From NCBI RefSeq assembly GCF_029960785.1, contig NZ_JASBQE010000101.1, positions 1 through 43,042 of the forward strand: a stretch of 43,042 nt of DNA, written 5' to 3'. The stretch's first letter is position 1. Each line of letters begins with the position of its first letter. Shown here piece after piece: positions 4,115 through 19,316 of this stretch. The position numbers and the translations under genes were made by a program. Source of the stretch: Polyangium sp. 15x6 (GTDB lineage: Bacteria; Myxococcota_A; Polyangia; Polyangiales; Polyangiaceae). The notes beneath the pieces were generated by a model. It made no database searches. It was given only the letters and a program-made list of their open reading frames with translations, and was not told the origin of the DNA.

Positions 4115-5177
4115 AGCACGTCGCGCGCGGCGCTCGCCGGTCGCGTACGCCGCCCTCGCCGCCCTCGTGACGTTCGCCCTCGGCCCGAGCGCCGCGCGCG
4201 CCGAAGGGCCTGCGCCCGCCACGACCGCGCCCGCCACGACCACGCCCGCCACCGCAGCCCCGCGCCGCGTCGAGGTACGCCTCTCGATCTCGCGCGCCGC
4301 CGCCGAGGCGCTCGGCGGTGAGCCCCGCGTGCGACGCTTGCTCGAGATCGAGCTCGACGACACGGGCACGCTCGCGCCCGGTCCGAGCGGCCCGCTCGGC
4401 GATGACGTGGCGCACGTCTGGATCGATCTCCCGAGCCCGTCCGAGGTCCTCATCGAAGCGAGGCTCGCCGAGCGCGCCGCCGGGCGACGTTTCATCCTGA
4501 TCGGCGGCCTCAACCCCGACGTCGCCGCGCGCCTCGTGGCCATCGCCGCGAACGAGCTCGTCCGCGCGCAGGCGCGCCCCATCCGTCCGCGCAAGGCCCC
4601 GGCCCCGCGCACGCCCACGCCGAAGGAGCTCGAGCTCGCGGCGCGGCGCGCGCCTGCGATTGTCTGGTCGGTCGCGCCGAGCTTCGCCTTCTTGCCCGGT
4701 TCGTCCGGCACCTTGTGGGGCGCGGGCGCCTCGCTCGGCTTCCGCGGCGCGGGCGTGAGCGAACGCGCGACCGCCCGCTGGCTCACGGGCCCCACGAGCG
4801 CCGGCGCGACGCGCTGGTTCGAGGTCGGGCTCGCGGTCGACTACCGCGTCTACCTCGCTTCGTCGGTCCGCCTCATGCTCGGCGCCGATGCCGCGCTCGG
4901 CTTCTTGCACCTCAGCGACGTGCGCGCGACGGACGGCATCCTCCACGCGCGTGACGCGTGGTCCGGACGCGCGGGCGGCCTGCTCGGCGTCGACGTACGC
5001 GCGTTCGGCCCGGCTTGGCTCGGCCTCCACCTGAGCCCGGGCGCCATCCTCCGGCCCGCGCGCTTCGAGACTTCGGGCGGCCTCGACGGCGCCGTCCGTG
5101 GACTCTGGCTCGGCGTGGACCTCGCCCTGCAGCTCGAGCACCCGCTCGCCCGATCTGCTCCGACGAACCCTCGTTGA
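4005..5177 (+). CDS. Predicted outer-membrane beta-barrel protein of the ECF operon
   Basis: 390 aa if read from the ATG at 4005, which overlaps the preceding gene by 110 nt. A CTG at 4074 has a much better ribosome-binding site (AGGAGG, 9 nt upstream) and would still include the signal peptide (VAYAALAALVTFALGPSAARAEG). After a Pro/Thr linker, residues ~90-190 form an alpha/beta region (RVEVRLSIS, then FILIGGLNPDVAARLVAIAAN). From ~215 to the end there are alternating amphipathic strands (IVWSVAPSFAFLPG, WFEVGLAVDYRVYLASSVRL, LWLGVDLALQLEHPL) typical of a small outer-membrane barrel. It probably works with the sigma/FecR pair at the envelope. No family name is recognised. Confidence 0.75.
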   Translation: MAGARRTWSEFSRARSPRRRSPKLHRTREQATQARPEARRARRSPVAYAALAALVTFALGPSAARAEGPAPATTAPATTTPATAAPRRVEVRLSISRAAAEALGGEPRVRRLLEIELDDTGTLAPGPSGPLGDDVAHVWIDLPSPSEVLIEARLAERAAGRRFILIGGLNPDVAARLVAIAANELVRAQARPIRPRKAPAPRTPTPKELELAARRAPAIVWSVAPSFAFLPGSSGTLWGAGASLGFRGAGVSERATARWLTGPTSAGATRWFEVGLAVDYRVYLASSVRLMLGADAALGFLHLSDVRATDGILHARDAWSGRAGGLLGVDVRAFGPAWLGLHLSPGAILRPARFETSGGLDGAVRGLWLGVDLALQLEHPLARSAPTNPR

Positions 5178-5244
5178 TCGCTCGCGCGGGAGGGGGCCTT
5201 GTGCCTCGGCAGCGCGTCCCCATGAACCCGGGGGGAGCCTTTCG

Positions 5245-5520
5245 ATGCGACACCAGGAAGAGCCCGAGGAGACCTTCGTGCTCGGGCCTGCGAGCGCGGG
5301 GCGAGCGCTGCGCGCGCGCTTCGGCACGTTCGTCGGCGCCGACTACCTTCCCGGCAAGACGGCGATGCGCGACGCCCTTTGCGAGCGGTTCGGCGTCTCG
5401 CAACTCGAAGCCGAGGAGCTTTGTGACGCGCTCGAAGCATCGGGCGCGCTGCGCTTCATCAGCACGCCCGACGGCGAAGGCTTCCACATCGACAGCGACG
5501 TGGTCGACGAGGCCGCGTAA
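5245..5520 (+). CDS. Small hypothetical protein
   Basis: 91 aa from an ATG at 5245, with GGGGGAG about 8 nt upstream; the longer open frame from 5098 lies inside the preceding gene. It is acidic and soluble with no signal or membrane segment. The centre (TAMRDALCERFGVSQLEAEELCDALEASGAL) looks like two or three helices with a winged-helix flavour, followed by a short strand pair (RFISTPDGEGFHI). It might be a small DNA-binding or adaptor protein, but no family is recognised. It is co-directional with the flanking genes, with gaps of 67 and 107 nt. Confidence 0.7.
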   Translation: MRHQEEPEETFVLGPASAGRALRARFGTFVGADYLPGKTAMRDALCERFGVSQLEAEELCDALEASGALRFISTPDGEGFHIDSDVVDEAA

Positions 5521-5627
5521 CGCGCCCCGAAGCTCGCCGCGTGTCGAGCGACCTCGGGGCACGCGTGTTGCCCCTGTCGGGGCGAGCAGCTCGGCCCGGC
5601 GCGCGCGCTGCCACCGGAGGAAGCACC

Positions 5628-6761
5628 ATGTTGGACCGAGGCTGGACCATCTTCCGCATTCGCGGCATCCCGGTGAAGCTGCACATCACGCTCGTCCTGT
5701 TTCTCCCGTACGTCGCGTTCGTCACGTCTTCCCAGTTCAGGGCGATCGCCGAGGCCGTCGGCCTCCCGCGGAGCGAGCTGCACCTGCCGCCGCTCGTGTG
5801 GGGCGTGATCCTCGCGATCGGGCTCTTCGTCTCCATCCTGCTGCACGAGCTCGCGCACTGCCTCGTCGCGCTCTCGAACGGCGTCCGCGTCCGATCGATC
5901 ACGCTCATGATGCTCGGCGGCGTCTCGCGGATGGAGCGCGACGTGCGGCCCGAGCGCGAGGCGTGGATGGCCTTCGCCGGCCCGCTGTCGAGCTTCGGCA
6001 TCGCGGTCGTCTGCTGGCTCGTCTCGCTCTTGCCGCTGCTCGCCGAAGTGCGCGTCGCCTTCCTCGCGCTCGCGCTCGCGAACCTGGTGCTCGGCGCGTT
6101 CAACCTCCTGCCGGCCTTCCCGATGGACGGCGGCCGCGTGCTCCGCGGCCTCCTGTCCACGCGGCTCGGCCCCCGGCGCGCGACGAGCGTGGCCGCGACG
6201 ATCGGCAAGGGCATGGCCGTGCTCTTCGGCCTCTTCGGCCTGCTCTCGTTCAACGTGCTGCTCGTGCTCATCGCGGTGTTCGTGTACATGGGCGCGGCGG
6301 GCGAGCAGGGGCGCAGCCAGTGGAGGCAGGTCCTCGAAGGTTTGCCCGTGGCCGAGGTGATGAACGATCGGCTCGGCGAGGCGCACGCGGACGAACGCGC
6401 GGGCGAGGTCGCGCGGCGGCTCTTCCGGCAGAACCTCGCGGGCGCGCTCGTGGTCGACGGCGAGCACGAGCACGCCGAGCTCGATCCGGATCACGTGCTC
6501 GGCGTGGTGACGGCGTGGGACCTCGCGCGGCCCGAGCTCCACCGCGCGCCCGACGCGACCGTCGGCAAGGCCATGCGGACGGACGTGCCACGTGTGCACA
6601 CGCGCGACGACGCCGCGGCCACGCTCGACGCGTTGGTGAACGGAGACGCGGAAGCGGTGCTCGTACTCGACGAGGGCGAGCACGTCGTCGGCCTCGTGAC
6701 GCCGGCCGACCTCCAGCGCGCGCTCGCGCTCCTCGGCGCAGCCGGCGGACGAGGTCGTTAG
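5628..6761 (+). CDS. M50 (site-2-type) membrane metallopeptidase with CBS pair
   Basis: 377 aa. The ATG at 5628 has GGAGG 7 nt upstream. Membrane segments begin near residues 18, 55, 112 and 145. The zinc site is HELAH at 73-77 in a membrane helix, and the second motif NLLPAFPMDGGR at 159-170 supplies Asp167, both as in site-2 proteases and SpoIVFB. The C-terminal ~130 residues form two CBS domains (VLGVVTAWDLARPEL and VVGLVTPADLQRAL), which in this subfamily bind nucleotides and tune activity. Likely role: intramembrane cleavage of a regulator such as an anti-sigma factor. The sigma/FecR operon just upstream is an attractive but unproven target. Confidence 0.93.
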   Translation: MLDRGWTIFRIRGIPVKLHITLVLFLPYVAFVTSSQFRAIAEAVGLPRSELHLPPLVWGVILAIGLFVSILLHELAHCLVALSNGVRVRSITLMMLGGVSRMERDVRPEREAWMAFAGPLSSFGIAVVCWLVSLLPLLAEVRVAFLALALANLVLGAFNLLPAFPMDGGRVLRGLLSTRLGPRRATSVAATIGKGMAVLFGLFGLLSFNVLLVLIAVFVYMGAAGEQGRSQWRQVLEGLPVAEVMNDRLGEAHADERAGEVARRLFRQNLAGALVVDGEHEHAELDPDHVLGVVTAWDLARPELHRAPDATVGKAMRTDVPRVHTRDDAAATLDALVNGDAEAVLVLDEGEHVVGLVTPADLQRALALLGAAGGRGR

Positions 6762-6765
6762 TCCC

Positions 6766-6790
6766 GAGGGGGACGCCTCGCGTCCCCCTC
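6766..6790 (+). terminator. Strong hairpin after the M50 peptidase gene
   Basis: A perfect 11-bp stem (GAGGGGGACGC at 6766-6776, complement at 6780-6790) with a 3-nt loop begins 4 nt after the stop codon. There is no T-tract, so it may stabilise the mRNA end or act with Rho. Confidence 0.55.
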
Positions 6791-6818
6791 TCGGCCAGGC
6801 AAAGCCCGGCCGATTCAC

Positions 6819-6875
6819 CCCCCGAGGCGAGCTCCCTTCGGGACCTCGCGGAGCAGCGAACGAGTCGCTGCTCTA
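6819..6875 (-). repeat. Stop-codon two-hairpin element, copy A
   Basis: In the minus-strand sense this begins inside the stop codon of the gene at 6873-8270. Hairpin 1 (9 bp, 6851-6859 with 6865-6873) shares base 6873 with the TAG stop. Hairpin 2 (6827-6831, 6833-6836, loop TTC, 6840-6843, 6845-6849) follows, then a run of G. Copy B is at 11101-11158 with paired bases changed on both sides. Probably a transcription-termination or mRNA 3'-end element; there is no U-tract. Confidence 0.65.
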
Positions 6876-8270
6876 GGCGCTCATCTTGGGAATGATCAGG
6901 CGCACGCGCGCGCCGCCGCTCGGAGCATCTTCGATCTCGAGCTGCATGCGCACGTGCGCCGCGATCGCCGTCGCCGCGATGAGCGAGATTCCCGCCGGAC
7001 GACCTGCCGCGAGCACCTCGAAATCACGGCTCAGCACGCCGGTCCTCGCCGCCTCGGGCAGCGGATGCCCGGCGTCGTCGACCGTCAGCGCATACCCGCC
7101 GCTCGTATGCTCCGACAGCGTCAGCACCACCTCCGTGCCCGGCGGCGACGCGCTGATCGCATGATCGAGCAGCGCGTGCATCAGCACCGTCAGCGCCCCG
7201 ATCTGCGCCACCTCGTACGCGCTCTGCGGCGCGTTCAGCTTCACGCGCACGTCGTGCCGTGCCGCGCGCCCCACGTCGTCGCGCACCACGTCCCGCAGCG
7301 CCTCCGCGATGTCCACGTGCCGCGGCAGCTCGCCGATCGGGCACGCGCCGAGCCGCGCGAGGTCCGCCATCGTCTCCGACGCCGCCGTCACGTGCCGCAT
7401 CGCGCTCGCCACGATGTCGCCGACCTCGCCCTGCCGATCACGCAGCGGCAAGAGGTCTCGCGTGATCGCCGAGAAGATGCCGCGCAGCTCCGACACGAGC
7501 CCTCGCATGCCGGCCACGAGCACCGCGAGCCCCTCGCTGCTCACAGGCTCGATCGACGCGCTCGCCGGCGGCGGGCTCGACTTCGCGCCGCCGCTCGCGA
7601 ACACCGCCGCGAGCTCTTTCGCGTACGCCTCGCCTTGCTCCTGCGCGGCCTTCAGCTCGCGCTTCAGGTTCTCGAGCTCCTGCCGCTGCATGTCCACGTC
7701 GGCCGGCAAGACCAGCGTCTGCATCGAGCCGTCGAGCTCGAGCCGCCCTCCGTGCCGGATCGCCATGCGCGACAGCCACGCGCGCTCCGACTCGAACGTC
7801 GCGGGCTGGTCTGGACCGAGCACCACGCTGACCTTCACCTCTTCGCCTTCGCGGCGCACGCTCACCTCGGAGGTGCCCTTCGCGTTCGCCGGATCGCCTG
7901 CTTGACCGACGAGCAAGAGCAGCATGCGACGCAGCTCGGCCTCGTCGCCGAACACCGTCGTGCCCTCGCCCATCTCGATCTGCACGCGCGCCTCGGGCGC
8001 GACCTCCCACATGAGCTGCGCGAGATCGATCTTGCCTCGCCGCCCTCGGCTCGCGGGATGCCCGTGGAGCGAAGCCAGCATGCCGACGGCCTCGTCGAGC
8101 TGGTTCAGCGTCGTCTCCACCGCGACCGTGCTCTCGCCGTCGGGCACGCGAACGGAGCCCGGGGGCCCGTCCTGGATGATCACTCCCTGGCGGAGCTTCT
8201 GCGCTGCAGTGCGGGCTTCCTGCGCGAGCAGCCACGTCAGCTCGTTGCGCGTCAATCGATCGCTCGTCAC
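6873..8270 (-). CDS. Degenerate double histidine-kinase-like protein
   Basis: 465 aa from a GTG at 8270 with GGAG about 5 nt upstream; the same frame stays open to 10301, but there it lies antisense to a clear lipoprotein gene. Two kinase-like halves are visible. Half 1 (~5-200) has a helical pair (LTRNELTWLLAQEARTAAQ) and an ATPase-like fold ending GSMQTLVLP. A coiled coil (~208-245, QRQELENLKRELKAAQEQGE) joins it to half 2 (~265-465), with GLVSELRGIFSAI, the N-box-like LLDHAISASPPGTEV, the G1-like VDDAGHPLPE, and GISLIAATAIAA. No SHELR-type phospho-acceptor His is seen, and the N-box Asn is His. Likely a scaffold or sensor without autokinase activity; soluble, with no membrane helix. Confidence 0.75.
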   Translation of the reverse strand: MTSDRLTRNELTWLLAQEARTAAQKLRQGVIIQDGPPGSVRVPDGESTVAVETTLNQLDEAVGMLASLHGHPASRGRRGKIDLAQLMWEVAPEARVQIEMGEGTTVFGDEAELRRMLLLLVGQAGDPANAKGTSEVSVRREGEEVKVSVVLGPDQPATFESERAWLSRMAIRHGGRLELDGSMQTLVLPADVDMQRQELENLKRELKAAQEQGEAYAKELAAVFASGGAKSSPPPASASIEPVSSEGLAVLVAGMRGLVSELRGIFSAITRDLLPLRDRQGEVGDIVASAMRHVTAASETMADLARLGACPIGELPRHVDIAEALRDVVRDDVGRAARHDVRVKLNAPQSAYEVAQIGALTVLMHALLDHAISASPPGTEVVLTLSEHTSGGYALTVDDAGHPLPEAARTGVLSRDFEVLAAGRPAGISLIAATAIAAHVRMQLEIEDAPSGGARVRLIIPKMSA

Positions 8271-8378
8271 CCGATCTCCGTCCTCTGCGCTTTCTTCGAG
8301 AAATCGCGCCGACGCATGATGCCAGAACCCGTCCTGCCCTGCTACGCTGAAGGCGGACCTCGCCCCTCCTTCCTTGCC

Positions 8379-10592
8379 ATGACGAGCGCCGAGACGAAGG
8401 ACCCGCGGCCGCGGCTCTCGCGACATCTCCGCTGGATCGTGCCCCTCCTCCCCGCGGCCGCGCTCGCGAGCGCCTGTGGGCCATCCACCGCGCCGAACCC
8501 CTTCACCGTCGACGCCGGCCCCGACGCGGCGGACGAGCCCGACGGCGGTGGCGCCGGCGGCGGTAATCCCGACGACGGAGGCAAGCCCGACGACACCCTC
8601 GGCGGCCCTTGCAACGACGACGCCCAGTGTGACGACGCCCTCCCCTGCACCGTCGACACCTGCGACGTCTCGATCGCGCGGTGCCGCCACAGCCCCGACG
8701 ACGCGGCTTGCCAGAACGGCGTCTACTGCGACGGCGTCGAGCGCTGCGAACCCAAGCTCGGCTGCCTCCCCGGCGCCCCCGTCGCTTGCTCCGACGGTGA
8801 CGTCTGCACCATCGACACCTGCGTCGAGTCCACGGGCGCCTGCACCCACGCCTTGCGCGACGCCGACGGCGACGGCGCGCCCGACGGCCACTGCGTCGCG
8901 AAGGGTGACTGCGACGACGCCGATCCCAAGGTCTCCCCCGCGCTGCCCGAGGTCTGCGCGAACGGCACCGATGACGACTGCGACGGCGCCGTCGACGAGG
9001 CCGGCTGCGCCTCGCCCGAGCACGACGCTTGCGGCGATCCGCTCGTCATCGACGCGCCCGGCGCCTACACGATCGACACCACCGCCGCCGCCTCGAACTT
9101 CGCCGCCTCCTGCAACGTCGACAACCAGCCCGCCGCGCGGGACGTCGTCGCCGCGATCGTCCTCCCTGCGGGCCCGCCCCTCGACGTCGAGATCACCGCC
9201 CGGACGAACGGCCCCGACGTCGCCCTCGCGCTCCTCGGCCAGTGCGGCGATCCCTCCACCGAGATCACCTGCGGCAAGTCGTTCTTCCACCTCCAGGGCG
9301 GCCGCTTCGCCAAGATTCGCGGCCGTGGCCTCGGCGATCCGGCGAAGGCCCTCGCGCTCCCGCTCTACGTCTTCGCCGACGCGGACACGCCCGTCATCCT
9401 CGACGTCGCCTTCCTCCCGCCCGAGCCCGTTCCCACGAACGAGACCTGCGCCCTCGCCGAGCCCGTCAACTTCGGCGTCCCCTTCTTCTCCACCTTGATC
9501 GACGCCGCCACGGACGTCGGCATCGCCTGCACCCCGCTCACCGGCGAGCTCCTCTACAGCTTCGAGCTCGCCTCCCCTGCGAACGTCCACGTCTACGCGA
9601 GCTCCGTCGACGTCGACGGCTTCCCCGTGATCTCCCTCCGCGACGCGGCCTGCGCGCTGCCCGAAAATGAGATCACCTGCAAGAACGCGCCGATCGTCGA
9701 CGTCTTCCGCCACGCGCTCCCGGCGGGCACGTATCACGTCGCCGTTGGGGCTTCCGCGCCCACGGTCGTCTCCACGACCGTCGTGATCGAGCCGCCCACC
9801 GAGCCTCTCCCGGACGAGACGTGCGAAGGCGCTCCCGTCCTCACGCCGAGCGTCACGCGTGACGTCGACCTCCTCGAGCGACAGGACGACGTCAAGCTCG
9901 GCTGCCTGCCGGGCGCCGTCGACGCCGCCTACACGCTCGCCTTGCCCGTCGCCTCCGACGTCCTCCTCGTCCAGCGAATCTCCCAGGGCGACACCGGCGC
10001 CGTCTCGCTCGCCCTCCCGCTTTGCGCGGACCCTTCCGACCAGCTCGTCTGCGATATGGGCGCGCAATCGCCGCTTCGCGTGGGCAAGCGCAACGTCCCG
10101 GCTGGCGATTACCGGGTCATCGCCGAATCTCTCCTCGGCCAGCCCGTACAGGTCACGGCGTTCGTCCGCAAGACCGCGCCGCCTTTGATCGTACCTTTCG
10201 CCGACGCTTGCGCCGACGTGCTCATGATCCCCGAGACGGGCGGTTTTTTCCAGGGCAACACCGCGAATGCCGCGGCGAGCTTCAATGCGGGCTGTGATCA
10301 AGGTGGAGGGCCCGAAGGCGGGGCACGTGACCAGCTCCTCGGGCTCTCGCTGTCTGATAAAAAACGCGTCGTGCTCGACATGGGCGGATCGGGCTACACG
10401 ACGCTACTCGACGTCCGCAAAGGGCCCGATTGCCCCGGCGTCGAGGTCCCCAAGGCTTGCGCCGTCGGTTACGGCCAAAACAAGAGCTTCCTCGACCTCA
10501 CCCTCGATCCGGGCATGTACTTCATCCAGATCGATGGGCTCGGCCAGGATAGCGGCCCCTGGTTCCTCGACGTCCGCGTGGTGGATCCGTAA
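8379..10592 (+). CDS. Large Cys-rich lipoprotein with MopE-like metal-binding motif
   Basis: 737 aa from the ATG at 8379; the frame is open upstream only as a shadow of the divergent gene. The leader ends in lipobox ASAC. A Gly/Asp-rich linker follows, then Cys-rich modules (CNDDAQCDDALPCTVDTC, CQNGVYCDGVERC, CSDGDVCTIDTC). Next comes the motif CDDADPKVSPALPEVC..GTDDDCDGAVDE, the Asp-rich repeat found in MopE-like and many myxobacterial secreted proteins and presumed to bind calcium or another metal. The remaining ~540 residues hold about four repeats of a beta-sandwich-like domain, each opening near (D)xCxxAxxx with one or two Cys pairs (DACGDPLVID, NETCALAEPV, DETCEGAPVL, DACADVLMIP). Exported and surface-anchored; the specific role is unknown. 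Confidence 0.85.
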   Translation: MTSAETKDPRPRLSRHLRWIVPLLPAAALASACGPSTAPNPFTVDAGPDAADEPDGGGAGGGNPDDGGKPDDTLGGPCNDDAQCDDALPCTVDTCDVSIARCRHSPDDAACQNGVYCDGVERCEPKLGCLPGAPVACSDGDVCTIDTCVESTGACTHALRDADGDGAPDGHCVAKGDCDDADPKVSPALPEVCANGTDDDCDGAVDEAGCASPEHDACGDPLVIDAPGAYTIDTTAAASNFAASCNVDNQPAARDVVAAIVLPAGPPLDVEITARTNGPDVALALLGQCGDPSTEITCGKSFFHLQGGRFAKIRGRGLGDPAKALALPLYVFADADTPVILDVAFLPPEPVPTNETCALAEPVNFGVPFFSTLIDAATDVGIACTPLTGELLYSFELASPANVHVYASSVDVDGFPVISLRDAACALPENEITCKNAPIVDVFRHALPAGTYHVAVGASAPTVVSTTVVIEPPTEPLPDETCEGAPVLTPSVTRDVDLLERQDDVKLGCLPGAVDAAYTLALPVASDVLLVQRISQGDTGAVSLALPLCADPSDQLVCDMGAQSPLRVGKRNVPAGDYRVIAESLLGQPVQVTAFVRKTAPPLIVPFADACADVLMIPETGGFFQGNTANAAASFNAGCDQGGGPEGGARDQLLGLSLSDKKRVVLDMGGSGYTTLLDVRKGPDCPGVEVPKACAVGYGQNKSFLDLTLDPGMYFIQIDGLGQDSGPWFLDVRVVDP

Positions 10593-10598
10593 TCGCGC

Positions 10599-10940
10599 TC
10601 AAGACCCTCCTTTCTTTGGTTTCGACCTCGGCTTCCCAGCCTGCACGCTGACGGTCACGTTGAAGGCGAGCCGATGGATCTCCTCCACGGCTCGTTCTGC
10701 CTCCTCCGGTGTCATCGCGAATCCCGTGAACATCTTGCGCCCGGCATACCGCGCCGGATCGACGCCCTCGGCATTCACGTAGATCAGACCGTCACTGCCA
10801 AGCGCGAGCTCCGTCGGAAGATCCTGCGGAGCCTCGTCCTCGTCCGTACGTACGTTTTTCTTTTTTCGATTCGTCGCCACCGCCGTAGCGTTCCTGCTGG
10901 TGCTCGTTTTCGTCCGCGGTCGGATCGATTCCTTACGCAT
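10599..10940 (-). CDS. Small basic hypothetical protein
   Basis: 113 aa from the ATG at 10940 (AGGAC about 7 nt upstream); a longer frame to 11144 would run through an intergenic repeat and is rejected. The first ~40 residues are very basic and Ser/Thr-rich (RPRTKTSTSRNATAVATNRKK). The core (LPTELALGSDGLIYVNAEGV, RKMFTGFAMTPEEAERAVEEI) looks like a small alpha/beta domain, and the tail is again basic (GKPRSKPKKGGS). The basic ends suggest contact with nucleic acid, but this is inference. Convergent with the lipoprotein gene at 8379-10592, 6 nt apart. Confidence 0.65.
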   Translation of the reverse strand: MRKESIRPRTKTSTSRNATAVATNRKKKNVRTDEDEAPQDLPTELALGSDGLIYVNAEGVDPARYAGRKMFTGFAMTPEEAERAVEEIHRLAFNVTVSVQAGKPRSKPKKGGS

Positions 10941-11059
10941 GTACGCGTCCTCATGGGGAAGACGCCAGCTGCGCACCTGACCAAGGCTCTTTCCATGCTC
11001 GGTTTTTCCCCGAACGTCAAGCATGGTTTTACCGGGGACTTCGGTTTGTCCGCGACCCG

Positions 11060-11098
11060 GTTTGTCCCAGGCCGTCCCGGCCGGCCTGGACCGGGCTT
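11060..11098. other. GC-rich hairpin in the 215-nt gap before the next gene
   Basis: CCAGGCCG and CGGCCTGG form an 8-bp stem around a 7-nt loop just before copy B of the two-hairpin element. The rest of 10941-11100 shows no convincing reading frame. It probably holds the promoter of the gene at 10599-10940, but no clear -35/-10 pair was identified. Confidence 0.35.
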
Positions 11099-11100
11099 TC

Positions 11101-11158
11101 CACCCCCGAGGCGAGCTCGCTTCGCGATCTCGCAGAGCGCCCACAGTTCGGCGCTCTA
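11101..11158 (-). repeat. Stop-codon two-hairpin element, copy B
   Basis: Same architecture as the copy at 6819-6875. Hairpin 1 (7 bp, 11135-11141 with 11150-11156) again ends on the first plus-strand base of the stop codon (CTA at 11156-11158). Hairpin 2 is 11111-11115, 11117-11120, loop TTC, 11124-11127, 11129-11133. The outer stem GCGAG/CTCGC and loop are identical to copy A; the inner stem is TCGC/GCGA here and TCCC/GGGA in copy A, a compensatory change. Sixteen flanking bases (CCCCCGAGGCGAGCTC) are identical. Confidence 0.65.
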
Positions 11159-12205
11159 GCCCTTCGCCTTCGCCTGCTCTGCGGCGAGCGCTGCGACGAA
11201 CGCCCCGCGCAGCGCTTCGAAATCCTCGACCGAGAGCGTGTGGCTATCCTGGACGAACCCATTGAACCAGTGCTTCGGCGCGCCTGGCCGCAAGGACTCC
11301 AGGATCGGCCGCGTCCGGATCTCCTTGCCGAGCTCTCCCAGCACCACGAATTTTTTTCGAAATGGCTGCGCCCCGCCGTCCATCCCCCGGAACGTCGGCG
11401 CCTCGTCCCGATACGTCTCCCCCACGAACATCCCCATCGCCCGCAGCCCCCGACCGCGCCCGGTCACGTGGAAAAAAAACGGGTCGCCCTTGGTGTACCT
11501 TTCGAGCTCCCCTTGCCTGCGCCGGCCGAAGCTCTTCGTTTGCATACAAAGCGTGTAGTTCTTCGCCGTCACCACGAGCAAGTGCCGCCGCGCTGCGGCC
11601 TTGGCCCGCTGCTCGCCGAGCTTCTGCGCCACCGAGAAGTCGAGCCGCGCCTCGGCCGTAGGATCCGGCGCGCGCTCCATCGCCGCCCGGCGCACCACGC
11701 GCAGCGCCTCGTACTCGGCCTCGAATGCGTCCGACAAGGGCCACGAGAGCTCCGACCAGAAGAGCTCCTCGAAAAGCCGCATCGGCCGTTCGAGCTCCGG
11801 CTCCGATGCGCTCCCCTCGATCCGCACGTTCACCGCGAGGTCCCGCGCGAGCCCCGACGCCGCGAGGTCCGACGAGCCCACGTAGACCACGCGCCGCGCG
11901 CCGCTGTCGAGCACGTAGAGCCGCGGCAAGAACGCCGTCCCGCCCCAGGCATGGTAGATGCGGCACCGCGCGCCCGGCATCCGCTCGAAGCGGCGCAGCA
12001 TCGCCGTCTCCGTCCCGTATCCGTCGAGCCCCGCGAGCAGCAAGAGCTCGCCGCCGCGCTCGACGAACCCCACGAGATCGACCACCGCGAGCGCGCTCGC
12101 CTCCGCGCGGCTCACCGCGATGCAGACCCGCGTCGCCTCGCCGAGGTCCGCGGCGAGCCGGGCCCCCATCTCTCGGCCGTGACGCAGGAGCTCGATGGTC
12201 GCCAT
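11156..12205 (-). CDS. PLD-like domain fused to EVE-like (PUA-fold) domain
   Basis: 349 aa. Residues ~1-160 resemble the phospholipase-D-like module of HKD nucleases: alternating strands and helices, FLPRLYVLDSG where FHPKLYLF is typical, then VVYVGSSDLAASGLARDLAV for the VGSSNLT..GL strand. The HxK His is absent (Leu) and Lys is Arg, so this half is probably catalytically weak or dead. Residues ~205-345 fit an EVE domain: HLLVVTAKNYTLCM, the basic GDPFFFHVTGRGRGLRAMG, a central VGETYRDEAP, KKFVVLGEL and a final HTLSVEDFEALRGAF. EVE domains read modified bases in DNA or RNA and are often coupled to nucleases in defence. The gene is isolated, with a divergent GST gene. The fusion reading is by eye. 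Confidence 0.7.
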   Translation of the reverse strand: MATIELLRHGREMGARLAADLGEATRVCIAVSRAEASALAVVDLVGFVERGGELLLLAGLDGYGTETAMLRRFERMPGARCRIYHAWGGTAFLPRLYVLDSGARRVVYVGSSDLAASGLARDLAVNVRIEGSASEPELERPMRLFEELFWSELSWPLSDAFEAEYEALRVVRRAAMERAPDPTAEARLDFSVAQKLGEQRAKAAARRHLLVVTAKNYTLCMQTKSFGRRRQGELERYTKGDPFFFHVTGRGRGLRAMGMFVGETYRDEAPTFRGMDGGAQPFRKKFVVLGELGKEIRTRPILESLRPGAPKHWFNGFVQDSHTLSVEDFEALRGAFVAALAAEQAKAKG

Positions 12206-12330
12206 GCTCCCCGCGTTTCTAGCAAGGGACCCCGCGCCGCGTCGAGCCTCTTTCTCGCGCGATCACGTTCCTGGGCAAACGGACCCCCGTCCGATTGACG
12301 CCCCTCTCCGGCTCGGGTCTCCTCGATGTC

Positions 12331-12984
12331 ATGAGCCAAGATCCCGAACGCGAGCTCGTCTACTTCGACATCCGCGGCCGAGCCGAGTCGATCCGCCTCC
12401 TCCTCGCTTACGCGCGCGCCCCTTACGTCGATCGGGGCATCCCGCGCGCCGACTGGCCGAGCCTCAAAAAGACCGTCCCCCTCGGCCAGGTCCCCGTCCT
12501 CCTCGAGCGCTCGTCCGGGGGCGAACGCGTCATCCCCCAGAGCCAGGCCATCCTCCGCCACCTCGCACGCGTCTTCGGCCTCGACGGGACGAGCGAGGAC
12601 GAGCGCGTCCGCGCCGACATCGTCGCCGAGACCGTCGTCGAGCTCCGCGCCGCGTGGAACCGCGTCGCCTACAACCCGGGTTGGCTCAACGATCAAGCCG
12701 CGACCGACGCGCATTTCCGCGACGTCTTCCCTCGCTTCCGCGCGCTCCTCGAAGGTTTGCTCGAACAATCCGAAGAGCGCGGCGCCCTCTACTTCGCCGG
12801 CCCCACGCCCACGCACGCCGACTTCCTCGCCTTCGACACCCTCGAATCGCACCGCGAGGTCGTCCCCTCCTGCCTCGACGGCCACGGCTCGCTCCAGCGC
12901 TTCCTCGACGACGTCCGCGCCCTGCCCCCGATCGCCGACTACCTCGCCCGCCGCCGCCCCTCGGATTTTCCGCAGCGGTCCTGA
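12331..12984 (+). CDS. Glutathione S-transferase
   Basis: 217 aa from ATG 12331; an in-frame upstream start at 12295 is less likely. The N-terminal thioredoxin-like half reads ELVYFDIRGRAESIRLLLAY (the Tyr and RGRAE pattern of sigma/mu-like GSTs), LGQVPVLLE with the cis-Pro, and PQSQAILRHLAR, where the Gln-Ser binds the glutathione gamma-glutamyl group. The all-helical C-terminal half includes YFAGPTPTHADFLAFDTLE, the usual N-capping box with a conserved Asp. It conjugates glutathione to electrophiles or reduces peroxides in the cytoplasm. Divergent from the PLD/EVE gene; no operon partner. Confidence 0.9.
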   Translation: MSQDPERELVYFDIRGRAESIRLLLAYARAPYVDRGIPRADWPSLKKTVPLGQVPVLLERSSGGERVIPQSQAILRHLARVFGLDGTSEDERVRADIVAETVVELRAAWNRVAYNPGWLNDQAATDAHFRDVFPRFRALLEGLLEQSEERGALYFAGPTPTHADFLAFDTLESHREVVPSCLDGHGSLQRFLDDVRALPPIADYLARRRPSDFPQRS

Positions 12985-13014
12985 TCCCCTTTCCTGGTAG
13001 TTTCGTATCACAAA

Positions 13015-13085
13015 AGGTCTAAAATAGATCTTGCCAGGGTCTCGTGTGTCTGCGACCGTGTACGCACCTTTCACAAAGGGTGTAC
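13015..13085 (+). promoter_or_regulatory. Two imperfect dyads upstream of the cytochrome lipoprotein gene
   Basis: AGGTCTA (13015-13021) and TAGATCT (13025-13031) form a near-perfect 7-bp dyad that covers TAAAAT (13020-13025), a plausible -10 box. A second imperfect dyad, GTAC..CACC..TTT (13060-13071) with AAAGGGTGTAC (13075-13085), overlaps the ribosome-binding region just before the ATG at 13090. The first could be an operator and the second an RNA hairpin; neither matches a motif known to me. Confidence 0.35.
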
Positions 13086-13089
13086 AAAC

Positions 13090-15960
13090 ATGAGATCCTT
13101 GCGCCTATCTCAGCTCCTCGTGATCCTCGTTGGCTGCGCGCCTTTTGCCGCGGTTGCCTGCAGTGACGACCCGTCGAACCCCGGCACGAGCACGAGCTCG
13201 AGCAGCGCCTCCGGCAGCGGGGGCAGCGGCGGCGTCGGCGGCGCCGGCGGGACGGGCGGCGGAAGCTCGAGCACCGGCACCCCCGCGCTCGCCTGCGCCG
13301 ACGCGCTCCTCCCCCTCCAGAACCCGCGCGCCCACACCCTCGGCGAGACGTTTTACCTGCCGCGCTTCCTCACGGACCCCGGCTGCCCCGCCGAGCTCGC
13401 GTGGCAGGTCGTCTCGGCCCCGCCGGACAGCAAAAACGCCGTCTACAACACCGGCGCCCCCGAACCGCGCTTCACGCCCGACGTCCCCGGCGATTACACC
13501 TTCCGCCTCGACGACCCCGCGCAAACCGAACTCACGCTCCGCGCCGTCGCGCGCACCTCGCAGGCGCGATTCCGCAACCACCACCTCACGCCGCTCCACG
13601 GCGCGACCGCGGTCGACGGCGAGCTCTGGACGGCGAACGGCGCCTCCTACACCGTCACGCGCCTCGTCGCCGACAACGGCCAGTGGAAGAAGGCCGGCGA
13701 AATCACGGTTGGCGCCTGGCCCGCCGCGATCGCGCATCAGCCTGGCAGCAAGAAGGTCTACGTCGCGCAGCGCGGCAGCGACACGGTCGGCATCGTCGAT
13801 CGCGACCGCAACATCCTCGAAGACGCGCTCTGGGTCGGCGACGAGCCGAGCGGCCTCGCCATCTCGCCCGACGGAACGACGCTCTACGTCTCGCTCGCCA
13901 CGATGCGCAAGGTCGCCGTGGTCGACCTCGACAAACGCGAGATCAAGGGCACGATCGCCGTCGGCTTCGACCCGCGCGCCCTCGCGCTCTCGGCCGACGG
14001 AAAGCGCCTCTTCGTCGCCTCGTATCGATCGGGCAACAAGGTCAAGGACACGCGCGGCACCTACGGCCCCGGCGACGACGAGGACATCTGGATCGTCGAC
14101 ACCGAGACGCAAGAGGTCTCGCTCGCGATCTCCGGCGTCGCCGCGGATCTCCGGTCGATCTCGCTCTCGGAGGACGGCAGCGAGCTCTACGTCGCCGCGA
14201 CCGACGGCGACCCCGAGCCCTCGCAATCGGCGCCGAACGCCATGCCGTTCTTCCACGAGGTCGTCGTGCTCGGGGCCGACCCGGCCAAACCCGACTACGG
14301 CACCGTCCTTCGCCGCGCCGATCTCACGCGGCAATCGGGCTCCGGCGGCGCGGTCGTCAACCCCTCGGGCGTGCTCGGCGTGGGGGACACGATCTGGGTC
14401 TCGTCCGAATCCTCGGACGTCGTCGTGGCCCTCGACCGCGCCACGCTCGCCGAAAAAGGCCGCACCACCGTCGGCCCCGGCGCGCGCGCGCTCGTCAAGA
14501 TCGGAAACGAGGTCGCCGTCCACAGCTACCAGAGCTTCGAGGCGAGCTTCCTCGACGCGGCCGGCGCCGTCGTGCAAACCGTCGCGCTCGCCGAGGATCC
14601 GCGCCCCGCGAACGTCGCCCTCGGCGAGCGCGTCTTCACGCGCCCCGGCGGCGGTTTTGCCGCGAACCATGCCTGCTCGAGTTGCCACGTCGAAACCCAG
14701 AACGACGGCATGGTCTGGCGCTTCGGCCCGCAGATCTGGCACAACGTCCGGCCGCTCCAGCTCCTCGACGCGACGACCCCGCTCGAATGGGGCGCGTACG
14801 TATCGAACGCAGACAATTTCGGCTATCAGGGCCCGAGCTCGATCGTCGGCCGCCCGGCGACGCCCGAGGAGGCGCTCGGCCTGCAGGCGTTCCTCGGCTC
14901 GCTCCTCGGCGCCCCGCGCGAGACGGGCCATACCCGCGTCGACGGCAGCTTCACGGAGGCGGCCCTCCGCGGCAAGGACATCTTCGAGGGCAAAGCCGCT
15001 TGTTATGGCTGCCACGCGCCGCCTCTCTACACGTCGCGCGAATACATCCCCGTCGGCAAATCGGGCGAGCCGGCCGACATCCCCTCGCTGCTCGGCGTCT
15101 ACCGCCACGGCGTCTATTTCGTGAAGGGACAGGGGCGGAGCCTCGAAGCGGCGCTCGACGTGGCCATCCATTACGTACAGGCCGACCTCACGCCCGACGA
15201 GAAGGCCGATCTGCTCCAGTTCTTGCGCGAGCTCACGCCGAAGGGCGCGCACCCGCTCGCCATCTGGCCCGACATCGACAGCGACGACGCGGTGTACCCC
15301 GACATCCGCCCGAGCATCGCGTTCGCCGATCCGATCGACGACTCGCAGCCCGGGAAAACCGCGGCCGACGTCGCCGCGGACTACGTCATCCTCGAAACCG
15401 AGGCCGGCGAGAAGGTCGCCGGCTCGATCGTGGTGACCGGCGGCCGCGCCGAGTTCGTCCCGGCGGCGCCGCTCACGGCGGGCGCCAAGTATCGATTCCG
15501 CGTCTTGCCGGGCCTGCCGTTCCTCTCGGGCGGCGCGACCTCGGGCGAGCGGAGCACGGAGTTCGTCGTGGCGAACCCCCCGATCGGCACGTGGCCCAAG
15601 ATCATGAAGATGACCGTCACGGTCCCTGGCCCGGGCGGCGTGATGACCCCGCTCGATTACGTGCTCGAAGCGAGCGACACCCCGCGCCCGGGCGGCATGA
15701 CCTTGATGGTGAAACCCCAGCTCTTCGGCAACCAGCAGCGACAGGAGGTGTGGGCGCGGCTCGACGGCGACAAACTCTACATGCAGCCCGTCGCCCTGCC
15801 GATCAACCCCACCGGCGTGGCCGACGCCGCGATGATCGTGGGCACCGTGAAGACCGTGAACCAGGCCGATCAGAGCATCTCGCTCGTCGAGGGCACGCTC
15901 CGGCTCGGCGGCCCGGGCATCAACCTCCCGGGCGTCGCGTTCGCCATCGTCCCGAACTGA
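13090..15960 (+). CDS. Lipoprotein with YVTN beta-propeller and di-haem cytochrome c domain
   Basis: 956 aa. The leader ends in lipobox AVAC, followed by a Ser/Gly linker to ~residue 60. Residues ~150-520 hold a beta-propeller of YVTN/YncE type (KVYVAQRGSDTVGIVDRD, GLAISPDGTTLYVSLAT, ALALSADGKRLFVAS). Two haem-binding CXXCH sites follow: CSSCH at 529-533 and CYGCH at 638-642, as in the cytochrome c peroxidase/MauG superfamily; a Met axial ligand was not assigned. The C-terminal ~270 residues contain Ig-like beta domains (PDIRPSIAFADPIDD, then AEFVPAAPLTAGAKYRFRV). Likely an outer-membrane or periplasmic redox protein. Monocistronic and convergent with the next operon, 3 nt apart. Confidence 0.88.
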   Translation: MRSLRLSQLLVILVGCAPFAAVACSDDPSNPGTSTSSSSASGSGGSGGVGGAGGTGGGSSSTGTPALACADALLPLQNPRAHTLGETFYLPRFLTDPGCPAELAWQVVSAPPDSKNAVYNTGAPEPRFTPDVPGDYTFRLDDPAQTELTLRAVARTSQARFRNHHLTPLHGATAVDGELWTANGASYTVTRLVADNGQWKKAGEITVGAWPAAIAHQPGSKKVYVAQRGSDTVGIVDRDRNILEDALWVGDEPSGLAISPDGTTLYVSLATMRKVAVVDLDKREIKGTIAVGFDPRALALSADGKRLFVASYRSGNKVKDTRGTYGPGDDEDIWIVDTETQEVSLAISGVAADLRSISLSEDGSELYVAATDGDPEPSQSAPNAMPFFHEVVVLGADPAKPDYGTVLRRADLTRQSGSGGAVVNPSGVLGVGDTIWVSSESSDVVVALDRATLAEKGRTTVGPGARALVKIGNEVAVHSYQSFEASFLDAAGAVVQTVALAEDPRPANVALGERVFTRPGGGFAANHACSSCHVETQNDGMVWRFGPQIWHNVRPLQLLDATTPLEWGAYVSNADNFGYQGPSSIVGRPATPEEALGLQAFLGSLLGAPRETGHTRVDGSFTEAALRGKDIFEGKAACYGCHAPPLYTSREYIPVGKSGEPADIPSLLGVYRHGVYFVKGQGRSLEAALDVAIHYVQADLTPDEKADLLQFLRELTPKGAHPLAIWPDIDSDDAVYPDIRPSIAFADPIDDSQPGKTAADVAADYVILETEAGEKVAGSIVVTGGRAEFVPAAPLTAGAKYRFRVLPGLPFLSGGATSGERSTEFVVANPPIGTWPKIMKMTVTVPGPGGVMTPLDYVLEASDTPRPGGMTLMVKPQLFGNQQRQEVWARLDGDKLYMQPVALPINPTGVADAAMIVGTVKTVNQADQSISLVEGTLRLGGPGINLPGVAFAIVPN

Positions 15961-15963
15961 TCC

Positions 15964-16608
15964 TCAAGGCGCCTTCGTATTCGCCTCGCCGGGTGTCGGC
16001 TCGCAGGCCTCGAAATCACCGATGCCGTTCGGCACCCGGCCGTACGTCTGCCCATCCGCCACGGCGGCCGGCGGATACTCCGCCTCCGCGACGATCGCGT
16101 CGCTCGGCGACAGGAAAAAGATCTTGTCGCCGTTCTTCGCGCTGATCCCGAATCCAGCGTGATAACAGGTCGCCGGACCGCCGCTCGACAGGCACTCCGA
16201 TTGGGGTCCGGACCCGGGCGCGTCGAGGCCCGCGACGATGACGAGGTACGCGCCCGGCGAGAGCTTCGTCCCGGCCACGAAACGCACGGCCTCCGCGACC
16301 TTCGGCACATCGCCGTCCTGATCGGCGATCCCGTACCCGTCGAGATCCATCACTGCGTCGCCCACGTTGACGATCTCGATCCACTCCTCCGCGCCCGTCG
16401 CCGCGATCTCGTTGATCACGATTTTCGCCGCGCCGGAACCGCCCGCGCCCGCGCCGCCCTGCCCGCCTCCGCCGCTCCCGCCGCCGCCCTGCCCCGCAGA
16501 GCTGCTCGCGCTCCCCGTGGGAGGCGGATCCTCCGTCGCCTCCGAGCAGCCGAGCACGGCAGTTGCCGCGACGAACACACTTGCCAGGAAAAACTCCATT
16601 CTCGCCAT
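15964..16608 (-). CDS. Lamin-tail-domain lipoprotein
   Basis: 214 aa from ATG 16608 with GGAG 8 nt upstream. The leader ends in AVLGC. The linker (~25-60) is Ser/Gly/Gln. Residues ~62-210 match a lamin-tail (LTD) fold: KIVINEIAATGAEEWIEIVN, VMDLDGYGIADQDGD, FVAGTKLSPGAYLVIVAG, FGISAKNGDKIFFL, then TYGRVPNGIGDFEACEPTPGEAN, the usual TPGxxN ending. Bacterial LTDs occur on secreted proteins and are thought to mediate binding. Last gene of a three-gene operon (14 nt after the barrel gene). Two Cys (in SECLSS and ATCYH) may form a disulfide. Confidence 0.88.
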   Translation of the reverse strand: MARMEFFLASVFVAATAVLGCSEATEDPPPTGSASSSAGQGGGGSGGGGQGGAGAGGSGAAKIVINEIAATGAEEWIEIVNVGDAVMDLDGYGIADQDGDVPKVAEAVRFVAGTKLSPGAYLVIVAGLDAPGSGPQSECLSSGGPATCYHAGFGISAKNGDKIFFLSPSDAIVAEAEYPPAAVADGQTYGRVPNGIGDFEACEPTPGEANTKAP

Positions 16609-16622
16609 CTCGTGGTCTCCTC

Positions 16623-17756
16623 TCAGAAAACGACCCGGCTCGCGAGCCGGAGCTCCCAAAAATCCGAGCCGGGCAACGCCGCCTGCGCGACCTCCCCCGG
16701 CACCTGCCGCGTCACGGCGACATGCCCTTCGAGCGGCTGCGCCACGCGATATCCGACCGAACCCGTCACCGTCGCGACCGTGTCCCCCGCCGCGCCGAGA
16801 TCCCGGTTCCAGTAAGCGCCGCGCAGGCCGAACATCAGCCGATCCACGGGCTCGACCCGCACGAATCCATCGACGAGGAGCGACCTTCGCGCGCCGTCGT
16901 CCGCGAGCCCCCACGCATGCGTGACGGACGCGCCCGCGCGCACACGCGTGCCTTGCCACAGCACCGATCCGGTCAGCCTGTCCGCGCGGGAAAGCCCCGT
17001 GCCCGACGAGCCGATCACGTACGACCCGAAAATCGCGAGCGGCCGCGCAGCCCCGCCGGGCGCGGGATGCACGGACGCCGCGATTTCAATGTTTTTCCCG
17101 CGATTCAGCTCTCGATTCGTGTATCCCTCGCCGTTGTACGCACCGACGGCGACGAACCCATATTTCCGCGGCAGATTCACGCGTGCCGTCGCGCCGAGGT
17201 CCGCGGGCGAGAGCATCCCGGTTTGCTCGATCGGCGCGGGCCCGACGACCCTGAGCCTCCACGTCCCTTCCAGCTCGGGCACGGTGAGCGTCGGGACGAC
17301 GCCGGCCGCGAATACGAACCACGACGAATACTTGACCCCGGCCCACGCCTCGCGGAGTCGCAGCACGATGCTATCGCCGGCCACGCCGATCAGCGCCCCC
17401 TCGCTCGCCGAGCGCACGCCTTCGACGACCACGCGCCCCACGGCCGGGCCGAACTCCCCCGTGATCGCGCCGTGCACGCGCGGCACCTCGAACAGGTGAA
17501 ACCACGATCGTTGCCCCGGCTCGGTCGCGGTCCATCGAACCGCGTATTGCGCGAACATCTCGAGCCCCGGCGTCACCTTGAGCCCCGTGGTTCCCGCTGC
17601 GGTCGGAGGCGCCGCGGTGCCATTGAAATCGGGCGGGGGGGCGGAGGCGGACGCAGGGGCGCGCGCGGTCGCGGGGGCGGCCGCTTCCTGCGCCGCGGAA
17701 GGCGCCGCGGAGGCAATCGTCGCGGCCAGAATCGTCGTCAGGACCAAAATACGCAT
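16623..17756 (-). CDS. Outer-membrane porin-like beta-barrel
   Basis: 377 aa. The signal peptide (MRILVLTTILAATIASAAPSA) is cleaved near AQEA, with an Ala/Pro spacer to ~50. The rest is built of alternating amphipathic strands with aromatic girdles (LEMFAQYAVRWTATEP, SWFVFAAGVVPTLTVPEL, GFVAVGAYNGEGYTNREL, VRAGASVTHAWGLADD, LMFGLRGAYWNRDLG) and ends in RLASRVVF, the terminal aromatic typical of BAM-inserted barrels. It resembles phosphate-selective-porin-like proteins in layout, but the substrate cannot be read. Middle gene of the operon: 12 nt after the DUF2252 gene and 14 nt before the lamin-tail gene. Confidence 0.82.
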   Translation of the reverse strand: MRILVLTTILAATIASAAPSAAQEAAAPATARAPASASAPPPDFNGTAAPPTAAGTTGLKVTPGLEMFAQYAVRWTATEPGQRSWFHLFEVPRVHGAITGEFGPAVGRVVVEGVRSASEGALIGVAGDSIVLRLREAWAGVKYSSWFVFAAGVVPTLTVPELEGTWRLRVVGPAPIEQTGMLSPADLGATARVNLPRKYGFVAVGAYNGEGYTNRELNRGKNIEIAASVHPAPGGAARPLAIFGSYVIGSSGTGLSRADRLTGSVLWQGTRVRAGASVTHAWGLADDGARRSLLVDGFVRVEPVDRLMFGLRGAYWNRDLGAAGDTVATVTGSVGYRVAQPLEGHVAVTRQVPGEVAQAALPGSDFWELRLASRVVF

Positions 17757-17768
17757 GCGGGCTCCGTG

Positions 17769-19316
17769 TCAGGGCACCTGGGCGTCGCCAAAAAGCGCGC
17801 GCAAATCGGGCGGCGGGGTATCCGCCGGATCCATCGGAATCCCCAGCCGCGGTCCGCGCTCCGCGAGCGCCTCCCGGAAGAGCCCCCAATCGACGAGCAC
17901 CTGCGCCGCATATCGATCCCCGACCTCGACTTGCTCCGCGACGAACCCCGCCGGATCATGCCCGATCACCTCGGCCACGTCCCCCACCGCCCACGACGTC
18001 CCCAGGGGATTCGCCGCATGCGCGCGGGCCACCACGCCGCCGAGCCGGCGCCCGAGGCTCGCGAGCGCCGCCGGGCTGCCTCGCTCTTCGACCATGCGGC
18101 TCGTCCGCAGCGTCTTTTGCCCCTCGCTCTCGCGCTTGATCTGACAGACGAACCCCATCCAATCCGTCGTACCCCAGAGCGGCTCCGCGTCGGGCCGGGC
18201 CCAGGCCGCGCGCGACGCGCGGCGCACGCGCTCGGCGACGTCGTCGTAAAACACGCCCGGCGGATAAAGGCCCGCGAGCCCGCTGTCGGCGAGCTCCTTC
18301 AATTCGAGCACGACGTCGTCGTCCGGAGCGTCCGTCGGCCCGCGAACGAGCAAGATGACGCGCACCCGGGCCCAGCTCGCGACCCCCGAGCCGAGCTCGC
18401 GCGCGGCGTCGAGCAGCGTGAAGAATGCCGGCGGCGGCGGATCGAGGAGCGTTTTTCGATATCGCTCGATTGCCGCGGGAAGCTCCGCGTACGCCGCCAG
18501 CGGTACGTCGAGATAAACCCCCGTCGGCTCCTCCGGATCGAGCACACCACGACGAAGACGACGCTCCGGGCCTTCGAACATCGAAAGCTCGTCGAGCTCT
18601 GCGCGGGCATCCCGATCCTCGATCGAACGCTCGAACAGATCGTCGAGGTTCGGATCTCCCCCGCCCTCCGTGATCCGCTCGCGCGGCGCGCCTTTCGCGA
18701 GGGCGGCGATCGTCTCCGCATACCCTTCCGCCGCGGCGCGGGCAATCTCGCGCGACGCCGCAGCCGTCGCCGCCTGCGCGTTCGGATCGTCGGCGTTCGC
18801 GAGACGCGCGGCGAGCGCCATTCCTGCGACGAGGCGGCGGACGTCCCAGAGATACGGAGCAAAATCCGCGCTGTCGAAATCGTTCGGCTCCAGCGCGAGC
18901 GTGCCGTCGGCCGCGAGCAAGGCCCCGAAGTTCTCCGGGTGCGGGTCCCCGAGCGCGGGCACGAGTGGCCCGGCGAGCGCGAACGCGGACGCGCCGAAGC
19001 CGAAGTTGTTCCCTCGATAATCGTGGAGCGAGAGCGGCACGGTGCCTCGATAAAAATCGTACGCGCTCGCGGCCATCCGCGCGTATTTGCCCTCGCAGAG
19101 GCGCGGCCTCGCGCGGAGGAGCGGCTCGTCGGCCCGTGCCATCACGCTCGTGATCTCGGCTTTGCGCGCCTCTTCCTCGCTCCTCTCGCCGCACGCCGCG
19201 AGCCCGAGCCCGAGCCCGAGGCAAAGACGAAGACATCTCGAAGGCGGCGGCCCGTTCACGCGGGCGATGCCTAATCGAGCGGAAACGTCGAGGCAATCGC
19301 GCGGCGCACGCGACAC
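17769..19316 (-). CDS. DUF2252-family lipoprotein
   Basis: 515 aa from GTG 19316; a GTG at 19259 would give a shorter leader. The N-terminus (CLRLCLGLGLGLAACGE) carries a lipobox, so it should be lipid-anchored outside the cytoplasm. The DUF2252 core shows YDFYRGT, the motif GDPHPENFG, EPNDFDSADFAPYLWDVRRL and a later VLELKELADSG and TDWMGFVCQIKRESEGQKTL. GDxHxxNF and DFD resemble the catalytic and metal-binding loops of the aminoglycoside-phosphotransferase kinase fold to which DUF2252 is thought to be related. A kinase-like fold on the periplasmic side is odd, because ATP is absent there. First gene of the operon with a porin and a lamin-tail lipoprotein. Confidence 0.88.
   Translation of the reverse strand: MSRAPRDCLDVSARLGIARVNGPPPSRCLRLCLGLGLGLAACGERSEEEARKAEITSVMARADEPLLRARPRLCEGKYARMAASAYDFYRGTVPLSLHDYRGNNFGFGASAFALAGPLVPALGDPHPENFGALLAADGTLALEPNDFDSADFAPYLWDVRRLVAGMALAARLANADDPNAQAATAAASREIARAAAEGYAETIAALAKGAPRERITEGGGDPNLDDLFERSIEDRDARAELDELSMFEGPERRLRRGVLDPEEPTGVYLDVPLAAYAELPAAIERYRKTLLDPPPPAFFTLLDAARELGSGVASWARVRVILLVRGPTDAPDDDVVLELKELADSGLAGLYPPGVFYDDVAERVRRASRAAWARPDAEPLWGTTDWMGFVCQIKRESEGQKTLRTSRMVEERGSPAALASLGRRLGGVVARAHAANPLGTSWAVGDVAEVIGHDPAGFVAEQVEVGDRYAAQVLVDWGLFREALAERGPRLGIPMDPADTPPPDLRALFGDAQVP

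Follow-up and report, generated by a model that had tools for sequence, protein, structure and literature searches.

A conserved Polyangium protein with predicted PLD and EVE folds and a degenerate nuclease motif

A gene on the minus strand of the window, as we call the whole stretch of 43,042 nucleotides of Polyangium sp. 15x6 DNA analysed here, raises the question of what a protein can do when it appears to join a nuclease-like half without its catalytic histidine to a putative reader of modified bases. The gene (11156..12205) encodes 349 aa, with an ATG start and a TAG stop. The initial annotation had proposed a degenerate PLD-like domain fused to an EVE-like domain, acting as a sensor or adaptor rather than as a restriction enzyme.

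Predicted folds and motif residues of the PLD-EVE protein

Besides the window's own gene, five orthologues with 86–95% identity were found (six Polyangium genomes in all), and the reading frame is full length and stop-free in every one of the six. Pairwise dN/dS ranged from 0.032 to 0.136 for the full length (14 of the 15 Polyangium pairs giving a value), from 0.036 to 0.228 for the N-terminal half (15/15 pairs) and from 0.014 to 0.077 for the C-terminal half (13/15 pairs), the values being rough for some pairs, those with dS > 1. The gene is under purifying selection in Polyangium and, since dN/dS is 0.03–0.14, it is not decaying. The window protein and its counterpart in the most distant Polyangium species (G001) are 83% identical in the N-terminal and 93% in the C-terminal half, and in the comparisons with the other four species the identities of the two halves are alike. 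The product of a neighbouring HATPase gene is 95–98% identical within the genus; therefore, the PLD-EVE gene evolves somewhat faster than this neighbour.

Searched alone against Pfam, NCBIfam and PADLOC, the window protein matched no family of PLD, EVE or defence type, and its PLD and EVE assignment rests on homologues, profiles and models. A match to Pfam Intu_longin_2 (0.042), below the family cut-off, was set aside as chance. The AF2 model of the full-length protein, built from 5 rows, is usable in the N-terminal half only (pLDDT under 50 in the C-terminal half) and is poor (pLDDT under 50) at residues 85–94 and 111–124, which touch the catalytic motifs. In the VIA fold search, whose matches cover about residues 1–165, the N-terminal model resembled NucT (Z 15.3, 2.7 A, 139 residues), SauUSI (Z 14.8, 3.0 A, 152 residues), Nuc (Z 14.1, 2.9 A, 141 residues), the pseudo-PLD FAM83B (Z 13.8 for 5qhm and 13.3 for 5lzk) and the archaeal chromatin protein TrmBL2 (Z 13.4), and its top Foldseek match was SauUSI (5.5e-7). 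Pfam PLDc_2 (cut-off 27) was matched above its cut-off by two homologues, a paralogue in P. fumosum (39.1 bits) and the protein of genome G294 (32.8 bits); both also matched the PADLOC ZacB model at 1e-9 and, far below its cut-off, the DISARM DrmC model. At the level of the model, a PLD fold is confirmed for residues 1–180 (11666..12205, minus strand).

For the C-terminal half, a profile of 5 rows was compared with the PDB and matched PH1033 (8.8e-7) and MJECL36 (3.8e-5), both UPF0310. The half was also predicted alone, which gave a modest model (mean pLDDT 64.5), and VIA placed this model closest to the same two proteins, PH1033 (Z 11.8, 3.1 A, 127 residues) and MJECL36 (Z 11.7, 3.2 A, 132 residues). 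Next came YTH and ASCH domains, at about Z 10, and then the EVE-HNH protein VcaM4I (6yex; Z 9.6). PH1033 and MJECL36, the closest solved sequences and structures, are short (145 and 147 aa) and carry a Trp in the WG motif. Among the family models, NCBIfam PRK00809, which we take to be an EVE family, matched the P. fumosum paralogue (1.2e-6) and Pfam EVE matched the G294 homologue (0.1), each below its cut-off. Run across the whole own genome, the Pfam EVE model found two other places and missed the PLD-EVE gene, and the EVE half as the sole query was found in its own genome only among 144 genomes of the class. EVE, YTH and ASCH are described as PUA-like domains (PMC7641849), and an EVE fold is confirmed, as modelled, for about residues 205–340 (11186..11593, minus strand). 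Both halves of the protein are thus of the kind that the initial annotation had supposed, and the fold comparison, set beforehand as the result that could overturn it, returned PLD and EVE folds.

The pocket of the EVE domain appears less faithful to its relatives than the fold. W26 and Y82 of the P. syringae EVE protein (2eve) are cited from earlier work as pocket residues in the account of VcaM4I, in which one of them is given as not conserved; VcaM4I, which shares the EVE fold, is described there as an active enzyme with HNH instead of PLD and a base pocket of P24, W82 and Y130 (PMC7897488). Counted from the first printed residue, W26 is the Trp of the W.GVR motif. Its position corresponds by motif to F226 (codon 11528..11530, minus strand), and F272 (codon 11390..11392, minus strand) lies in the loop that probably matches Y82, both equivalences being drawn from sequence and the loop alignment being uncertain. 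In the three homologues whose PLD motifs are intact, the WG motif reads VWG or TWG, but in 6/6 Polyangium sequences it reads SFG; residue 272 is Phe in four of the six and Ile in two, versus Trp in those homologues; and residue 282 differs too (PFR in Polyangium versus PWR). The probable pocket positions seem, therefore, to be altered in the Polyangium clade. Given that the presumed pocket aromatics have changed, the ligand of the EVE domain might not be a modified base, and the Polyangium protein may have a new specificity. Of the modification reader claimed in the initial annotation, the EVE fold stood, but the reader itself cannot be taken as unchanged.

The catalytic motif of the PLD half is degenerate. 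HxKx4D reads FLPRLYVLD (11906..11932, minus strand, residues 92–100), as expected from the earlier reading of LPRLY without His, and GSxN reads GSSD (11867..11878, minus strand, residues 110–113), which adds K to R and N to D to the missing His. Five of the six Polyangium sequences have FLPRLYVLD or FLPRLYVID with GSSD, and the sixth (G001) has FVPRLWVLD with GGSD; the changes of H to L or V, K to R and N to D are accordingly present in 6/6, the window included. Three of four signature residues are gone and D100 is kept, so that D100, G110 and, in 5/6, S111 are what is left of the PLD signature, and none of the six sequences carries the HxK(x4)D...GSxN nuclease signature. By comparison, the motifs are FHPKLYVLD...GSSN in the P. 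fumosum paralogue, FHPKLYVLD...TSAN (T for G) in the G294 homologue and FHPKLYLIE...GSSN in the homologue from G585, a broken gene. Of the PLD stretches taken from Myxococcota loci, 37 of 38 had HxK, that of G294 included; the stretches came from hits with fetched loci (L021–L027, L035–L073), and duplicates and stretches missing the motif region were dropped. The sole stretch without HxK was an insignificant second stretch (E 23) of a protein whose main stretch has HxK. Since the search profile held six dead sequences and one intact sequence, it was not biased towards intact ones. The nucleophile of PLD enzymes is reported to be His (PMC6008594). From its sequence, the window protein is best read as catalytically dead as a PLD nuclease, the direction from intact to dead being taken from the superfamily motif.

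Homologues, locus and distribution

The P. fumosum paralogue (genome G003) is 45% identical to the window protein. Two of the three homologues with intact motifs, those of G294 and G585, adjoin defence-type genes, so that, in line with the initial annotation, homologues do not always sit in housekeeping settings. In G294 (L061), an opposite-strand protein cut by the contig end matches NF045808, a phosphorothioated DNA-binding restriction endonuclease, at 3.5e-52, its 177.3 bits falling slightly short of the cut-off of 180. Directly downstream of the G294 gene, with a one-base overlap, L061:1766-2617 encodes a second single-motif PLD-type protein with HPK and GSCN, matched by PADLOC mREase_IV at 1.2e-6 and by Pfam PLDc_2 at only 0.34; the PLD-EVE protein and this second protein could form a mixed nuclease. 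A tyrosine recombinase lies at 5115 of the same locus. In G585 (L091), a DUF5131 protein that matches PDC-M41B (1.4e-104) and PDC-M30B (4.3e-103) and its partner, matching PDC-M30A (6.1e-46), are convergent with the broken gene, the PADLOC PDC families being candidate families only. Recombinase-like frames were seen by eye near the G585 gene, and a Pfam search of one of them gave no match; the broken state of this copy is possibly a sequencing error. The P. fumosum paralogue (L020) lies near a histidyl-tRNA-synthetase-like gene and a DUF6882 gene, with no recognised defence gene adjoining and no PADLOC match in the one neighbour tested. Just upstream of it, at about 9160–9750 of L020, are long heptad-type repeats (VHEVREG-like or DAFPDLV-like, depending on the frame).

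At the window locus, a glutathione S-transferase (GST) gene (12331-12984, start chosen by eye) lies upstream and is divergent, and a small ORF on the same strand, with its frame open over 10599-11144, lies downstream. Farther out, one flank carries genes for a MopE metal-binding motif protein, the HATPase protein and an M50 peptidase, and the opposite flank genes for a beta-propeller protein and for a protein with a lamin-tail domain. None of the 10 flanking window proteins (2801-19316) matched PADLOC at 0.001, and the defence or mobile neighbourhood that marks EVE-PLDc restriction enzymes was not seen here; the solitary setting noted in the initial annotation was borne out. The order HATPase, MopE-like, small ORF and PLD-EVE is common to 6/6 Polyangium loci, whereas the GST gene is missing in G002 and the gene order in G001 breaks beyond GST. 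In two sister genera (G023 and G008), HATPase and MopE are kept at about 60% identity in stretches of 17–18 kb, from which the small ORF, PLD-EVE and GST are absent (tblastn, 1e-6). We infer that the PLD-EVE gene was acquired on the Polyangium stem, because acquisition is simpler than two losses. Given that the small ORF was likewise not found in the matching block of the two sister genera, it and the PLD-EVE gene may have been gained together. The small ORF is 72–74% conserved across the genus and, over 10602-11000, has no Pfam or PADLOC match.

Full-length relatives among 317 genomes of the class were the six Polyangium proteins, with the broken copy in G585; among 71 genomes of G294's class, G294 alone had a relative; and in a 377-genome phylum sample, relatives were found in the included members of the genus and in G294, the class and phylum searches having been limited, for most genomes, to about five or six scored candidates. 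Further PLD-EVE relatives may thus exist. A scan of genome contigs found four loci, all Polyangium, with three named Polyangium records at 90–95% identity; it used two short peptide patterns and exact matches, which relatives outside Myxococcota may escape. With the G294 protein as query, two plasmid records gave a PLD-only match (34% of the query) and phages gave no match, and with the alignment as query, none of 42 pattern matches in viral contigs was confirmed. In an eight-row tree without an outgroup, the six Polyangium sequences cluster together, and about 1.4 changes per column (0.41 + 0.96, divided by the midpoint root) lie between them and the paralogue and G294.

Bell, Wolf and Koonin (2020, PMC7641849) described numerous EVE-PLDc fusions, which they list alongside predicted modification-dependent restriction enzymes. 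These fusions hold the same two modules in one chain, with EVE as the specificity domain, but are described there as nucleases, whereas the Polyangium protein is without H, K and N and sits at a fixed non-defence locus. The EVE-PLDc architecture is already known; the genus-wide catalytic loss with retention of the gene is added here, and searches of open-licence PMC papers gave no description of a genus-wide dead PLD-EVE protein. The intact PLD-EVE genes near defence genes and the dead copy conserved through one genus form a natural series in which one could test how a defence nuclease becomes a cellular reader.

Candidate functions

Considering the domains, the motif residues and the locus together, we think it on balance probable that the Polyangium PLD-EVE protein is an acquired restriction-type nuclease, now dead, that is kept as a non-cutting nucleic-acid binder. 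On this view, a restriction-type PLD-EVE nuclease would have entered the Polyangium lineage on its stem, become fixed at a single site in the chromosome and lost its catalytic function. The comparison with SauUSI (7clg) bears on what such a protein could do. SauUSI is described as a type IV, modification-dependent restriction enzyme composed of PLD, SF2 helicase and SRA, which dimerises via its PLD domains, the catalytic site appearing to be built from the HxK motifs of both protomers (PMC7913695). The window protein shares with it the PLD half and a putative base reader at the C terminus, but it lacks the helicase and the HxK motif and carries EVE in place of SRA. By analogy with SauUSI and BfiI, it would most likely form a dimer via the PLD domains that presents two EVE domains, and this dimer would bind nucleic acid with a modified or flipped base without cutting it. 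Expecting dimerisation like that of SauUSI, without the usual attack on a phosphodiester, we favour a non-cutting dimeric binder. The ligand may be a modified base in DNA, and RNA or an unmodified flipped base are also possible. The role would be that of a sensor, roadblock or adaptor, presumably outside defence; the sensor or adaptor role put forward in the initial annotation is, from this analysis, plausible.

A more specific form of the non-cutting binder is offered tentatively: a horizontally acquired, modification-dependent restriction enzyme may have been domesticated in the Polyangium ancestor to read the cell's own nucleic acid without cutting it, the PLD half serving as a platform for dimerisation or partners and the pocket being retuned from Trp to Phe. 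Two known cases are relevant. The FAM83 DUF1669 pseudo-PLDs are reported to have the PLD fold, to have lost the His and to anchor CK1 (PMC6008594); like the window protein they are a PLD fold minus His, but they are described as a vertebrate family and have no EVE domain. PcdA of Staphylococcus aureus is described as an EVE-bearing McrB relative turned cell-division factor (PMC10602043), a precedent for the co-option of an EVE-bearing restriction-system protein to a cell role, although it belongs to the McrB AAA+ family and has NTPase activity. Pseudo-PLDs being known in animals, the dead PLD-EVE protein would be a second route, independent of the co-option of PcdA.

An anti-phage function, in which the protein would still bind modified phage DNA without cutting and block it or recruit another nuclease, is less easily reconciled with the locus. 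The retained EVE fold and the defence-type surroundings of two of three homologues speak for it, but defence genes are usually gained and lost, whereas this gene keeps one fixed locus in 6/6 species; moreover, 0/10 flanking proteins match PADLOC and the probable pocket residues are changed. We regard this function as unlikely. It is more doubtful still that the protein remains an enzyme whose PLD site uses other residues or cleaves another phosphodiester. Strong selection on the N-terminal half, the retention of D100 and the PLD fold, and H85, conserved in 6/6 Polyangium and the paralogue though not in G294, would be consistent with such activity; against it, the nucleophilic His is replaced by Leu or Val, Lys and Asn have gone too, and no other HxK was seen by eye in the window protein. 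That the dead protein regulates an intact PLD-EVE enzyme of the same cell, or pairs with it as an inactive partner, could be imagined for P. fumosum, which has both genes, but is highly improbable, as the paralogue occurs in only 1/6 Polyangium genomes and the other five retain the dead gene in its absence. Lastly, a decaying remnant without function, as the lost catalytic residues and the broken copy in G585 might suggest, is hardly credible, being largely contradicted by the selection estimate (dN/dS mostly near 0.05) and by frames that are full length and stop-free in six genomes.

Sequences downstream of the gene

The two-hairpin element at 11103-11155 (about 53 bp) had been taken in the initial annotation as the marker of the gene end, and this claim did not hold. 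An alignment of the six downstream regions showed the element at the PLD-EVE gene in the window's species only (1/6), and it had at least 17 further matches in the own genome (E <= 0.001); of the places listed for G003 (41) and G005 (40), nearly all match as well, these counts being lower bounds, with about 40 of 95–122 candidates scored per genome. It was accordingly rejected as a part of the gene and is a dispersed repeat, which we label REPIN-like; a partial copy lies at 6819-6854.

Between the PLD-EVE gene and the small ORF, a stretch at about 10970-11070 (minus strand) with GG[AT][AC]AAACC-like units is conserved in the genus. The sequence GGACAAACC occurs 4 times in the window versus 0.16 expected, two of them within 10970-11070, and GGAAAAACC occurs 3 times versus 0.08 expected, one of them within the same stretch.
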